From IMG/VR virus record IMGVR_UViG_3300042691_042834, positions 1 to 44,481 of that record: a stretch of 44,481 nt of DNA; one strand, 5' to 3'. Made by a program: the position numbers and the translations under genes. Below, one piece after another: positions 1,522 through 22,549 of the stretch. The notes under the pieces are model-generated. The model made no database searches and was not told the DNA's origin. It saw only the letters and a list, made by a program, of their open reading frames with translations. Each line of letters begins with the position of its first letter. Within the stretch, counting starts at the first letter, position 1. Origin of the DNA: a virus.

Positions 1522-3603
1522 ATGTCACGATTCTCTCTGACTCCCAACCGCCCGAACACCGCCGGCGTCCCGTCCCTCGACATGCTGACGGACCCGTTCG
1601 CGTTCCTCGGCCAGCTTGCGGAGATCCAGTCCCGCAACGCCCCGACCGGTACCAGTGGGGGTTCCAAGCAGAAGACTCCGCCGACTCCGCCGACTCCGCG
1701 CGACGTCGTGCCGCAGACTCCACCGGCGACTCCTCCGGCCGCGAAGCCCGCGACCCCGGCTGCCCCCGCAACCGCCGCACCGAAGGCCGGCAAGTACGAG
1801 GTCCGAGGCGCATCCGCCAAGACGCAGTTCGACGCCGAGCTCGCGGCGCTCAACGCCCGCGTGACCCGTGGCGAACGGGTGGACCCGCTCGAGTTCACCC
1901 GTGCGCGACAGCGCTACGACAACGCGGTCGCCGGAGCTGGCGCCGGCATCCGGCTGGAAGAGATGTACGAGAGGCAGCGTCAAAGCCGTCGCGAGGAAGC
2001 GGCGAGAAACAGGACGAAGAGAGAGGCGGCCCGCGCCGCCCGACCCTCGACCACGACTGCTCCTGCTGCGCCTGCTCCTGCTGCGACTACGACTGCTGCT
2101 CGGGGTCCGGATACTACCCAAACTGTCGGGGCTGTCAAGCCTGTTTCAGATGATTTCCTCGCGGCAGGCCAGACTTCGATCGAGCAGGAGAACCAGCGCT
2201 ACCTCGGCAACCTGGCGAACGAGCGCCTGGCCCGCACCGCAGTTGTGGATCCGCTTCTTCGCGCCATCAACGAGCAGGTGGCGCGTCTGCGCGAGCTCGC
2301 CCGCGCGACTCCCGCCGGACAGGTCTCGCAGCTCGCCGAACCCGTGAAGGCTCCGTACGTCCGTGGGCCCGGTGACGTCCCGCTCGACGACGCGCCACGT
2401 CAGCTTCCCCAGCCGGCGCCCAGCCAGCCGATCCGTCCAGTGGGGGTTGAGACGCCTTACTCAACTCCTCCGGTTCCGCTTCGCACCGACGGATACGCGC
2501 TGAACCAGAACGGCGTGGATCTTGGATTCGGCGCGTTCCGTCCTCCGGCGCAGGATCCCGCGTACGCGCAGGCTGCCCGCGCAGTTCTGTCGCGCCCCGT
2601 CTACACCGAACCGGACCTCTTCGGATCTCCCGTCGACTTCTCCGATCCCAACATCCAGCGCCGCTTCGAGCAGGATGTCCGGAACGAGATGCTTCGCAAC
2701 GCTCCGGGCCAGGCAGCCACCGTTTCGACGCCCGAAGCGGTACGCGCGGAAGCCGCTCGCATCCCCGCCTTCGCGCCGACGGGATTCGAGCAGGTGGCCA
2801 ATGTCGTCGGAGGTCCGTTTGCGCCGGGATCCGGAGCCTTCGGTGCTCCGATGCCGGGAGACATGCTCGCTCAGCTGGCGCTCACGGCAAACTCTCCGAC
2901 GGTTTCCGACTACGACCGCAACGAAGCGGCTGCGTTGCTCGCAGCGTCGCAGATGCAGGGCGGCATGATGGACGCCCTCACGATCGCCGGTGGTTCGGGC
3001 GCACGGTCGACCGCCACTCCCCGTCCTGCACAGGGAACCTCCGGCCCCGTCACCGCCACTCCGCCCGCTCGACCCCGGGTCAATCCTCGCCCAGAAGGTC
3101 CGGTCATCACGGCCAATCCCGACGCTGGTCCTTCGTTCACGACCACGAGGCCGGTCGAACCGTTCGGGCAGGTGACCGCGCTTACCGAATCGCAGGTGCA
3201 GGCGATGCTCCGCGATCTGGGGGTTTCTGCGCCGACGCCGCAGAACGTCCGGTACGACCCGCTGCAAAACCGGTTCGACATCGGCGGTCCGAACCTCCGG
3301 GCCGACAACACTATCGTCTCGACCTCGCCCCTGCCCGGTCGCGGTCTTGGCGAGGTCACGACTCCGACGGCGCTCGGGCCCATGCGCGGTCGCGACATCA
3401 GCCGGGCTCCAACAGGGGTCCTCGGTCCCGCTTCTCCGCAAGGCCGTGTCGCTCAGATCCAGGCGCAGAACGCGACGCGCGACTACGTCAACCGCATGCT
3501 CGACGGTCTGGCGAAGCTCGGCGTCCTGCCCAAGTCGGAGGAGCAGGCGTTCCTCGACGCCACCCTCCGTAGCTCCCGGAGGACTCCGCCAAACCCTCAG
3601 TAG
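1522..3603 (+). CDS. Proline/alanine-rich disordered protein, probable virion component
   Basis: This 693-residue protein starts at ATG 1522 behind TAGGAG. Residues about 40-90 are a Pro-Thr-Ala linker with repeated T-P-P-T-P-like units. Residues about 95-190 are charged and probably helical, and the rest is rich in Pro, Ala, Gly and Thr with little hydrophobic core. I do not recognise a family. As the first gene of the late-type strand it is probably structural or virion-associated, but this is inferred from position only. It contains two copies of the dispersed motif, read in different frames (T-S-G-G and P-V-G-V). Its 3' end carries a canonical -1 frameshift signal that would add 150 residues from the next frame, so two products are likely: 693 residues, and about 842 residues after the shift. 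Confidence 0.75.
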   Translation: MSRFSLTPNRPNTAGVPSLDMLTDPFAFLGQLAEIQSRNAPTGTSGGSKQKTPPTPPTPRDVVPQTPPATPPAAKPATPAAPATAAPKAGKYEVRGASAKTQFDAELAALNARVTRGERVDPLEFTRARQRYDNAVAGAGAGIRLEEMYERQRQSRREEAARNRTKREAARAARPSTTTAPAAPAPAATTTAARGPDTTQTVGAVKPVSDDFLAAGQTSIEQENQRYLGNLANERLARTAVVDPLLRAINEQVARLRELARATPAGQVSQLAEPVKAPYVRGPGDVPLDDAPRQLPQPAPSQPIRPVGVETPYSTPPVPLRTDGYALNQNGVDLGFGAFRPPAQDPAYAQAARAVLSRPVYTEPDLFGSPVDFSDPNIQRRFEQDVRNEMLRNAPGQAATVSTPEAVRAEAARIPAFAPTGFEQVANVVGGPFAPGSGAFGAPMPGDMLAQLALTANSPTVSDYDRNEAAALLAASQMQGGMMDALTIAGGSGARSTATPRPAQGTSGPVTATPPARPRVNPRPEGPVITANPDAGPSFTTTRPVEPFGQVTALTESQVQAMLRDLGVSAPTPQNVRYDPLQNRFDIGGPNLRADNTIVSTSPLPGRGLGEVTTPTALGPMRGRDISRAPTGVLGPASPQGRVAQIQAQNATRDYVNRMLDGLAKLGVLPKSEEQAFLDATLRSSRRTPPNPQ
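1651..1662 (+). repeat. Dispersed motif copy 2
   Basis: Exact 12-mer read as T-S-G-G. It extends to an 18-mer, ending TTCCAAG, shared with 12438-12455. Confidence 0.92.
2437..2447 (+). repeat. Dispersed motif copy 3
   Basis: CCAGTGGGGGT read as P-V-G-V, a different frame from the copy at 1651 in the same gene. Confidence 0.9.
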
Positions 3604-3627
3604 GGGCTGAGCCAACCCCTCAGCCCC
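3591..3627 (+). promoter_or_regulatory. Programmed -1 ribosomal frameshift signal
   Basis: The heptamer A AAC CCT (3591-3597) is in the zero frame of the upstream gene, two codons before its TAG, and fits X XXY YYZ exactly. A 5-base spacer follows. Then comes a perfect 9-bp GC-rich hairpin: GGGGCTGAG at 3603-3611 pairs with CTCAGCCCC at 3619-3627, with a 7-base loop. After a -1 slip, translation continues at TCA 3597 and stays open to TGA 4047-4049. There is no U-tract after the hairpin, which argues against a terminator. Confidence 0.72.
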
Positions 3628-3692
3628 CTGCTGAAGTTTCTCGAATACCGCAGACCATCGGGCTTCCGCAAGGATTCAAGGCGGTTCGTAAT

Positions 3693-4049
3693 ATGGATAC
3701 GGCGGAAGCCCGTGATCCGGGAATGCTGTTCTACAACGTAGTTGATCCTTCCACCGGTCTCGCAAGTGGGCAGATCGCCTTTCAATGGAATCCGGCCAAC
3801 AGGATGTTCCAACCTGTTTGGCCCGGGGTAAACCTATATCCCCAAGCCCAGAAGAAAGGTCTTTATCCGGCATTCTTGACCGAGTTGGCCAAGTATGTCG
3901 ACATAGGCTCTACAGGGATGTCTGAAGAATCAGGAACCATGCCAAACGCCGCCAAGGTTTGGAAGAAGCTTGGGGCAAAGGAAGAGAATGTGGTGGAAGA
4001 CCCGCATATGAGCGGACCAAAGGCCTTTGTACTTAGGGGGAAAAAGTGA
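3693..4049 (+). CDS. GNAT-like small domain, or frameshifted C-terminal extension of the preceding gene
   Basis: From ATG 3693 this encodes 118 residues, but its frame is open upstream to 3573 with no ATG, GTG or TTG in between. The upstream stretch reads as a plausible proline-rich linker leading into I-G-L-P-Q-G-F-K-A-V. Together with the slippery site at 3591 this suggests the domain is mainly made as a -1 frameshift extension from 3597. The C-terminal part (S-T-G-M-S...A-A-K-V-W-K-K-L-G) recalls the end of acetyltransferase-like domains seen in phage virion proteins, but no catalytic residues can be assigned. Base composition is visibly less GC-rich than in its neighbours. The SD before ATG 3693 is weak (AAGG, about 11 bases away). 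The stop overlaps the next GTG start. Confidence 0.6.
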   Translation: MDTAEARDPGMLFYNVVDPSTGLASGQIAFQWNPANRMFQPVWPGVNLYPQAQKKGLYPAFLTELAKYVDIGSTGMSEESGTMPNAAKVWKKLGAKEENVVEDPHMSGPKAFVLRGKK

Positions 4050-4489
4050 GCAGATCCAAAAAGGACGGGATGTCGTTCAGCGTGGGCGGTGGACTCCGGT
4101 GGGTCCACGAGTCGCGGTTCTGCGAGGAGATGCAGTTGACCCCCACTGCGTTCCGGAAGCTGTGCCGGGCGCTGAAGGTCCCGATGTTGCAGATCCACAA
4201 GGACTGGCTCGTCAACCTCCACATGTTCCGCATCGGGCTCTGGGCCGCCACGCGGTTCGGGCAGCCTGACTTCCTCGTGCCCGGGTGCGAGACCGTGAAC
4301 CGTGGCAAGCGTCGAAAGTCGCAGGCCGTCTCGGTGCCGCGCGAGTACATCGAGAAGAATCTACCGATGCTTGTGGACGAGGTCTGCAAGGCTCGCGTCA
4401 TGGACGGCATCGAACTCGAGCAGCGCACCATCGACGAGTCCCGAGACGCCGCCCGCCGCATGCTCAACCTTCTCAACCCCAGCACCTAA
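4046..4489 (+). CDS. Small phage protein with HTH-like segment, function unknown
   Basis: This 147-residue protein starts at GTG 4046, overlapping the previous TGA. Residues about 24-50 (F-C-E-E-M-Q-L-T-P-T-A-F-R-K-L-C-R-A-L-K-V-P) look like a helix-turn-helix or excisionase-type DNA-binding segment. A second helical region of about 40 residues closes the protein. Its position at the head of the packaging cluster makes a DNA-packaging or regulatory role possible, but a small-terminase assignment cannot be supported. It holds a near-copy of the dispersed motif at 4139. Confidence 0.7.
   Translation: MSRSKKDGMSFSVGGGLRWVHESRFCEEMQLTPTAFRKLCRALKVPMLQIHKDWLVNLHMFRIGLWAATRFGQPDFLVPGCETVNRGKRRKSQAVSVPREYIEKNLPMLVDEVCKARVMDGIELEQRTIDESRDAARRMLNLLNPST
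4139..4148 (-). repeat. Dispersed motif near-copy
   Basis: Minus strand CAGTGGGGGT preceded by G instead of C; read as T-P-T-A by the plus-strand gene. Confidence 0.5.
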
Positions 4490-20741: not shown

Positions 20742-22088
20742 ATGTCGAACGGCGTCGTGACATCCGCATGCTGCTGCAACCAGGGTTGCCAGACCGACTG
20801 CTGCGGATGGTGGGCCTGCTCTCCCGACGGAGAGATCAACGTCACGTTGACCGGGTCGAAGATCGTGACGCGCACGATCACGCCGGGCGGACAGAACTGG
20901 ATCGAGGAGGAGATCTCCTGGTCGATCACGGCGACGATGCAGCGCACCGGCAGCACCTGCACCGACACGAGTCCAGGCTATCCCAACCTCTACCGGTACG
21001 AGGCCGCCAGCTGCGAGTTCTCGTGGGAGAAGGTGCGCCGCATCTACTCCCACGGAAACCGCAAATCATGCGCCGAATATTGTTTCACCGTCTGCTGCGA
21101 GTGTTCCGATTGGCTTTGCGAACCTCTTTCCGGACCGGGACTGCAGGCGACTCCGGAAGGCCCTTGCGGCCCGGGCGACCCGTGCTACATCTATTTCCCC
21201 GGAGATATCGCCTGCCTTGAGACATACACCGGCTTGACTCCGGAAGCAGGAGGTCCCACAGGCAACTCTTGCTTCAGCTGGAACTGCAAGCCGTTCGATG
21301 AATCGGCCGGGTGCGGAACCGCCGGATGCGAGGACGTGATCGAGTTCCGTCTGATCCAGGTGACCACGAACAGCTGGACCGGAACGCTCTACGGAAAGCA
21401 GTTTGGGTTTGCAGCGGCATTGGGATCGTGTCCGCGCGAAGGCAACTTTGCCGGCCAGGTGGAGAACACCAGATACGACTGGCTGTCCCGGTCAAGCTTG
21501 GCGACTCCTCCGGTGCTGGTGATCGTGTGCACCGACGAGTGCGGCGGGGATTGCGTCAAGCCGATGCTGATGTTCAATCCGGACAGCTCCTCCGTGTTCG
21601 TGCAGACGGAGTTTGACCGGACCATGGATGCATGCTGCAACGCCAACCCTTGCAATCCTCCTGAAGTCTGTCTGACCACCGGCGGAGCCATTCAGCCGTG
21701 GTACATCTGGCCGTTCGTCATCGTCGGCAAGGGCGATTGCCTCGACGCCACGACCTTCGACGAGCCGACCACGGGCGAGTGCTACTTTCCGTGGCCCTGG
21801 TGGGATTGCGTTGGCACTCAACCGTCTGTCCCCGGCGGATATTCCGATCATGTGGACATGATCGGAATCTGCGATCAGCCGTGTTCGCCGCTCGAGCGGA
21901 TCGACTCCAACAAGGAGTGCCGCGACGAGGACTACATGATCAAGAACAATCTGTACTGTGCTTGGGAGGCGGTGAAGGATCCTGAACTGTGCATCATCGA
22001 CACGTACTTCTGCTACTGGAATCCGTGGTGCGAGACGACGGTGGACTCGCGGACGTGGACCTGGGGCGTGACGCTGGGGGGAGCATGA
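20742..22088 (+). CDS. Extremely cysteine-rich virion-like protein
   Basis: The 448 residues include about 40 cysteines spread over the whole length, beginning S-A-C-C-C-N-Q-G-C-Q-T-D-C-C-G-W-W-A-C. Tryptophan, glycine and proline are also frequent. Motifs such as C-T-D-E-C-G-G-D-C and A-C-C-N-A-N-P-C-N-P-P-E-V-C recur without a fixed period. There is no signal peptide or membrane segment. It lies between fibre genes and the nozzle, so a virion surface or fibre role is likely. Disulfide formation after lysis, or metal binding, could stabilise it. Part of the gene (about 21040-21450) is less GC-rich than its surroundings. No family is recognised. Confidence 0.72.
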   Translation: MSNGVVTSACCCNQGCQTDCCGWWACSPDGEINVTLTGSKIVTRTITPGGQNWIEEEISWSITATMQRTGSTCTDTSPGYPNLYRYEAASCEFSWEKVRRIYSHGNRKSCAEYCFTVCCECSDWLCEPLSGPGLQATPEGPCGPGDPCYIYFPGDIACLETYTGLTPEAGGPTGNSCFSWNCKPFDESAGCGTAGCEDVIEFRLIQVTTNSWTGTLYGKQFGFAAALGSCPREGNFAGQVENTRYDWLSRSSLATPPVLVIVCTDECGGDCVKPMLMFNPDSSSVFVQTEFDRTMDACCNANPCNPPEVCLTTGGAIQPWYIWPFVIVGKGDCLDATTFDEPTTGECYFPWPWWDCVGTQPSVPGGYSDHVDMIGICDQPCSPLERIDSNKECRDEDYMIKNNLYCAWEAVKDPELCIIDTYFCYWNPWCETTVDSRTWTWGVTLGGA

Positions 22089-22549
22089 CTTGCTACTGGA
22101 ACCGGGACGGGAAGTGCAGGGATCCGAGGATCGGAGGAGGAGCGGCCACGGAGGAGCGGTGCTCGACGTGCTCCAGGTACCGGGCCACGCCGCAGGAGTC
22201 GCCGAAGGTGCAGGTCCGGGTGGAGAGGAAGGAACCCCCACTGGAAGGGTTGCCGGAGAACGCGGTGCAGGTGAAGCCGGGGATGCTCGAGAAGGCAGCC
22301 AGCTGGATCGCGGCGGAGGCCAGCCTCATCACCCAGGGACCAGTGGGGGAAGAAGAGTACCGGGCCCGGCTCGCGGCCTGCGGCGGCTGCCAGCATCTGA
22401 GGAAGTCGGAGAAGGAAGGCGAGCTGGGCTGGTGCAAGGCTTGCGGTTGCGGGCAGAATGCACGGGCCGAGCTGACCGTGAAGGCCCGGATGCCCAAGGC
22501 TAAGTGTCCTGTACAGGCGTGGCCCTCGACCGATACTAGGAGTAGGTGA
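22085..22549 (+). CDS. Zinc-ribbon-like cysteine protein
   Basis: The 154-residue product is taken from ATG 22085, overlapping the previous TGA as ATGA. The N-terminus has C-Y-W-N...C-R-D-P-R-I...C-S-T-C-S. The C-terminal part has A-C-G-G-C-Q-H-L...W-C-K-A-C-G-C-G, which fits one or two zinc-binding knuckles. The middle is a Pro/Glu linker holding one inverted motif copy (P-P-L-E), and a direct copy lies 95 bases further on (P-V-G-E). The function is unknown; it may assist folding of the cysteine-rich neighbour. Confidence 0.68.
   Translation: MTCYWNRDGKCRDPRIGGGAATEERCSTCSRYRATPQESPKVQVRVERKEPPLEGLPENAVQVKPGMLEKAASWIAAEASLITQGPVGEEEYRARLAACGGCQHLRKSEKEGELGWCKACGCGQNARAELTVKARMPKAKCPVQAWPSTDTRSR
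22234..22244 (-). repeat. Dispersed motif copy 13
   Basis: Inverted copy within the 18-mer shared with 9800-9817; read as P-P-L-E. Confidence 0.9.
22339..22349 (+). repeat. Dispersed motif copy 14
   Basis: ACCAGTGGGGG followed by A; read as P-V-G-E. Confidence 0.85.

Follow-up and report, generated by a model that had tools for sequence, protein, structure and literature searches.

A predicted −1 frameshift signal and a GNAT-like domain that appear to be exchanged together as a cassette at the end of a variable phage gene

The DNA analysed here, a viral record 44,481 bases long, is called the window. In it a −1 programmed ribosomal frameshift very probably adds a GNAT-like tail to the product of a variable gene, with signal and tail contained in an exchangeable cassette of about 460 bp. 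The comparison with related phages made the frameshift very likely; the ribosomal shift itself, its rate and the production of the fusion protein we infer from the nucleotide sequences. Phage proteins that gain an optional C-terminal domain through frameshifting are already known, and what appears to be new here is a self-contained, exchangeable cassette of signal plus payload. The coordinates of all features are collected in Table 1.

Table 1. Features of the proposed cassette and its surroundings (window coordinates).
Feature	Position	Strand	Remarks
Frame-0 ORF	1522..3603	+	693 aa, Pro/Ala-rich, predicted main product
Proposed cassette (signal, linker, domain, SD-like sequence of next gene)	3589..4046	+	matches the 464-bp unit of L023 that is absent in L161
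Slippery heptamer A AAC CCT	3591..3597	+	X_XXY_YYZ register, frame 0
Pro-rich linker KPSVGAEPTPQPP	3591..3629	+	−1 frame; first part overlaps the signal
Predicted −1 frame extension	3597..4049	+	150 codons after the shift, plus stop; 842 aa in total
Spacer CAGTA, 5 nt	3598..3602	+	kept as C(A/G)GTA in relatives
Frame-0 stop codon TAG	3601..3603	+	TAA in L153
Stem-loop, putative stimulator	3603..3627	+	arms 3603-3611 / 3619-3627, 7-nt loop
GNAT-like (acetyltransferase fold) domain	3630..4046	+	AF2 model and Foldseek
SD-like AGGGGGAA	4035..4042	+	cassette end, 5 nt before GTG 4046
Next gene, g4046	4046..4489	+	147 aa; GTG start overlaps the −1 frame stop (GTGA)

The frame-0 ORF starts at an ATG preceded by an SD-like AGGAG, ends with CCA AAC CCT CAG TAG and lies upstream of the terminase region. 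For its protein the Pfam search gave no match and the PHROGs search none better than E 0.19. Among relatives the N-terminal part of the protein is kept, with the motif DP.aFL..La.r and a coiled stretch VDPL..kRa.eRY.n.L retained (window 1522-3600), and the C-terminal part is highly variable; it is swapped among relatives and constitutes a hot spot of C-terminal exchange.

The original prediction had been made from the window sequence alone and proposed a heptamer, a stop codon, a 5-nt spacer and a 9-bp stem with no U-tract behind it; every one of these elements was found, exact to the base. The heptamer sits inside the overlap of the two reading frames (3573-3600), and the perfect 9-bp stem is formed by the arm GGGGCTGAG pairing with CTCAGCCCC, at a distance from the heptamer that is inside the 4-10 nt rule (PMC4066793). 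The signal had also been called canonical, which is correct for the register but generous as a label, because Y is C rather than A or U and the heptamer thus falls outside the published A/U consensus; the SEA-PHAGES frameshifts are not confined to A or U at Y (PMC10885494). In the 15 main ORFs in-frame X_XXY_YYZ heptamers make up 0.24% of codons, and the chance of finding one in the 9-codon overlap is about 2%. The frequency of a perfect 9-bp stem 4-9 nt further downstream is 0.09% per position, and a fold as good as that of the stretch downstream of the signal is seen in just 0.18% of 40-nt windows. Among the 23 in-frame heptamers of the main ORFs the most stable downstream structure is that of A AAC CCT at 3591, and the folding of the stem-loop against shuffled sequences gave z = −5.1. 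The bare string AAACCCT is not rare (2 found, 1.84 expected).

According to the proposed mechanism, most ribosomes would decode A AAC CCT CAG and stop at the TAG, yielding the 693-aa product. The stem-loop would make a fraction of them slip back by one base, with the tRNAs on AAC and CCT re-pairing on AAA and CCC, and these ribosomes would continue through the Pro-rich linker and the GNAT-like domain to give a minor 842-aa product, for which TPPNPSVGAEPTPQPPAEVSR is the predicted junction peptide. Both product sizes had been given correctly in the original prediction, as had the linker running into the downstream domain. When combined with a strong stimulator in E. coli, all but three of the 64 X_XXZ_ZZN heptamers (61) gave shifting at least twofold above background, and A_AAC_CCU is not among the three failing heptamers named (PMC4066793). 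CCN codons in the A-site are on average poorer shifters there (PMC4066793), so the efficiency may be low and a low ratio of extended product is expected, with the reservation that data from E. coli may not match the host. Stop-codon readthrough was rejected as an explanation, as frame 0 after 3603 does not code for the domain, and transcriptional slippage is unlikely at a site with no long homopolymer.

Relatives were collected by a terminase search, which gave 23 related contigs, and by a search with g4046, which gave 21, eight of them new. The downstream domain was found in L004, in L005, L017 and L023 (counted as one lineage) and in L008, and outside of the group in the AT-rich virus L001. 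The group members encode the domain in the −1 frame with respect to the preceding ORF, which ends in NPQ* or NPR*, and the junction carries AAACCCTC(A/G)GTAGGGGCTG followed by a strong stem-loop. A further contig, L153, has a near-identical signal (AAACCCTCGGTAAGGGCTGGGG...CCCCAGCCC) leading into a different domain in the −1 frame, so that the sample comprises four independent GNAT cassettes and L153. The heptamer is identical in all of these. The coding sequences upstream of it are unrelated up to the heptamer among the GNAT-cassette lineages, except for a 72% identical stretch common to L008 and L023, which ends 64 and 20 nt before the heptamer, respectively.

Folding of the stem-loops in four relatives gave z values between −3.9 and −4.8. 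At pair 8 the window has A-U, L004, L005 and L153 have G-C and L008 has an A.C mismatch, and the stem of L153 lacks the first pair (A.A); compensatory change is limited to one pair. At fourfold degenerate sites of the −1 frame, 4 of 5 are invariant in the first seven codons vs 6 of 46 elsewhere (Fisher p 0.004). With heptamer and spacing invariant, the signal is thus conserved beyond protein constraint, and the domain itself is 67-81% identical among relatives at the protein level. Relatives that keep both parts and lose the heptamer or the hairpin had been named as the observation that would speak against a frameshift. None was found in the phage group: all group relatives found to carry the GNAT-like domain keep heptamer, stop position, spacing, stem-loop and −1 geometry, and relatives that have no downstream domain are also without the signal. 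L001 needs no shift, since it encodes the domain in frame, close to the C-terminus of a 1063-aa protein and behind a Pro-rich stretch of its own.

With P0001 as the query, a peptide-pattern search gave no relatives, named phages searched with the domain and the terminase gave no match and hence no cultured relative, and the domain was not found in the bacterial genomes searched. Five 18-base signal matches in bacterial genomes (L033-L037) were rejected, since they do not look like real junctions and about the same number is expected by chance. A relaxed 14-base signal pattern retrieved 112 viral stretches, of which the readable loci were filtered for frame geometry; the convincing cases left were only the known cassettes plus L031, which is described below. 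L034 and L047 passed the geometry filter and were discarded as they resemble non-coding overlaps. As a sequence handle for finding further such units, AAACCCTCRGTARGGGCTG can be used.

The cassette is seen as a unit in the comparison of L161 and L023, which are about 97% identical on both sides of the locus, with L161 being without positions 5531-5994 of L023 (464 bp, 2 mod 3). This unit extends from 2 nt ahead of the heptamer to the next gene's start codon, and AAG is present at both of its ends, which constitutes a 3-bp microhomology at the junction. The frame-0 protein ends in TKESK* in L161, where the stop overlaps the next start, vs TKESKANPQ* in L023. In the cassette-free L161, L006 and L011 the counterpart of g4046 directly adjoins the frame-0 gene. 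An SD-like sequence (GGGGG, GGAGG or GGCGG) is located just 5′ of the start of the next gene in the window, L004, L023 and L008, and this sequence at the cassette end presumably lets translation of the next gene go on even if the TAG stops most ribosomes. In a tree of g4046, L008 with the cassette pairs with L011 without it, and the L005 lineage pairs with L161, which also lacks it; both forks are well supported. The domain has a GC content of 0.50-0.57 vs 0.66-0.69 upstream.

These observations of linkage, an empty site and exchange indicate that the cassette at the 3′ end of the variable gene is gained, lost and exchanged as a whole within the phage group. That the signal travels with its domain is not visible in one sequence and emerged from the relatives. 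An unlikely alternative, which nevertheless deserves more weight than the others considered here, accepts the frameshift and takes the cassette to be immobile, with the upstream C-termini diverging fast and some phages having deleted the cassette. The locus is indeed always the same, and the L161/L023 difference may be an insertion or a deletion, as the AAG microhomology fits both. However, L023 and L008 are 98% identical in terL and 99% in the gene at the portal position (g10042 in the window, called 'portal' from the gene order after the terminase and without a profile match), and their cassette domains are only 71% identical, while the pairs window-L008 (78%) and L004-L023 (81%) are closer. 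Near-identical packaging genes combined with such divergent cassettes imply that signal and domain move together, and the other payload behind the same signal in L153 also speaks against an immobile cassette. Beyond the exchange within the group, we somewhat favour the broader reading of a portable plug-in unit consisting of slippery site, stop, stem-loop, linker, payload (GNAT-like or of the L153 type) and the ribosome-binding site of the next gene. Inserted ahead of the stop codon of an unrelated gene, such a unit could leave the recipient protein nearly unchanged while a fraction of its copies gains the payload.

The −1 frame is open from 3573 to 4049 and its first ATG, GTG or TTG is at 3693, which agrees with the earlier statement that it has no usable start before that position. 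The description as two genes joined did not hold: the locus is rather one gene with a C-terminal cassette, and the ORF 3693-4049 is the 3′ part of the domain. It is improbable that the domain is a separate gene starting at ATG 3693 or by re-initiation after TAG 3601, with heptamer and hairpin being incidental or regulatory. The ATG is present, phages often use SD-driven or coupled starts, and g4046 itself looks coupled. Yet the first residues of the domain lie upstream of 3693, and even the alignment with the distant L001 covers residues upstream of this position, which is evidence against a product starting at 3693. Neither an SD before 3693 nor a start position common to the relatives was found, the first −1-frame starts being ATG at 3693 in the window, TTG in L004 and L023 and, in L008, an ATG well inside the domain. 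Moreover, an internal start leaves the invariance of heptamer and frame amid unrelated upstream sequences unexplained.

Two further explanations are very improbable. A frameshift mutation or an assembly error within one in-frame protein might be suspected from L001, in which a larger protein has the domain in frame at its C-terminus, and from L022, where the second domain described below is in frame, but independent assemblies of four lineages show the same −1 junction with its signal, L153 shows it once more with another domain, and the fourfold-site conservation also contradicts it. A transcription terminator or attenuator that leaves the domain little expressed would fit the strong GC-rich stem-loop right behind the stop codon, but not the missing U-tract, the protein-level conservation of the domain frame or the position of g4046, which follows without a gap.

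For the downstream domain, which a −1 frameshift would append, AlphaFold2 on five aligned sequences gave a model with a mean pLDDT of 84.6 and a pTM of 0.82, in which the first residues of the linker have low confidence. In the Foldseek comparison with the PDB the top matches were all GNAT proteins, the best being SpeG (6cy6, E 6.6e-4), with modest TM-scores of about 0.33-0.57 for the GNAT matches; a Pfam profile search of the domain gave no family at E<=1. The domain models as a GNAT fold, which begins upstream of the first ATG. The acetyl-CoA loop motif of GNAT proteins is (Q/R)xxGx(G/A), and in all members this loop appears as QxKGLY, with Tyr at the last position. The GNAT-like domain was the only recognisable one in the 842-aa product by Pfam, PHROGs and Foldseek; polyvalent proteins carry several in a single polypeptide that is delivered together with the DNA. 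Carried optionally by a minor share of the protein copies, the GNAT-like domain would perhaps acetylate host or virion proteins.

The original comparison with the 10A/10B pairs of phages is apt as logic; in capsid or tail extensions of this type both products are structural proteins of the virion. T7 gene 10A/10B and the T3 capsid gene yield a main product plus a smaller amount of a C-terminally extended form via a shift near the stop (PMC5009743), as predicted here; the differences are that the present gene encodes an uncharacterised Pro/Ala-rich protein, that the payload is GNAT-like and that the signal consists of the heptamer A AAC CCT and a short GC stem-loop. C-terminal Ig-like domains (T3, A2 and others) are optional and horizontally spread, some in frame and some by frameshift, and their −1, +1 and in-frame joins are viewed as chance landings after non-homologous recombination for which frameshifting was then selected (PMC5009743). 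The present case resembles them as an optional C-terminal domain on different phage proteins; unlike them, signal and domain appear to be inherited together in a fixed −1 geometry, and the extension models as GNAT and not as an Ig-like fold. Some lactococcal 936 phages extend a tail protein through a programmed frameshift, the optional accessory module gained in this way being the tail protein extension TpeX (PMC6669499). This is again similar to the prediction made here, with the difference that the protein is a structural tail protein there and the payload a carbohydrate-binding one. GNAT domains as parts of phage proteins are known from polyvalent proteins, multidomain proteins encoded near late genes, where they are described within one polypeptide and the word 'frameshift' is absent from the main text (PMC5512222); here the domain would be attached by a frameshift. 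No description of a frameshift-encoded GNAT extension was found in the literature searched, which covers the field in part. If confirmed, the cassette would mean that domains can spread with built-in dosage control and would explain how a new domain is added to a viral protein without harm to the original. It bears on how optional C-terminal extensions spread among phages.

The payload of L153 belongs to a second promiscuous C-terminal domain (GKTAGSWYPV..GGWLVKG), which is in the −1 frame in L153 (3150-3995) and in frame in L022 (1211-3817). For L153, L022 and L163 alike, the match is to the C-terminal region of phrog_32390, a profile of 1957 positions. Its structure model was poor (pLDDT 54.8) and was left out of the fold search. 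In L163 (1406-2080) ten consecutive A (GCA AAA AAA AAA TGA TGG) precede the domain, and this site may be either slippery or the overlap start ATGA; L163 was left uncounted as a frameshift case because the overlap start can explain the change of domain.

An identical AAACCCTCAGTAGGGGC is located in L031 (3965-5793) at the −1 junction of two Gly-rich, zipper-like reading frames. The contig has a tail-sheath-like gene and no detected homologue of the window, and the more distant GGGCACTG...CAGTGCCC stem folds no better than shuffled sequences (z −0.5); an independent or a shared use of the signal is possible. In the window itself, a G GGG GGA heptamer (22076-22090) is found 3 nt before the stop of the ORF 20742-22088. 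The −1 frame behind it is open to 22549, and ordinary coupling through an ATGA overlap is the more likely reading there.
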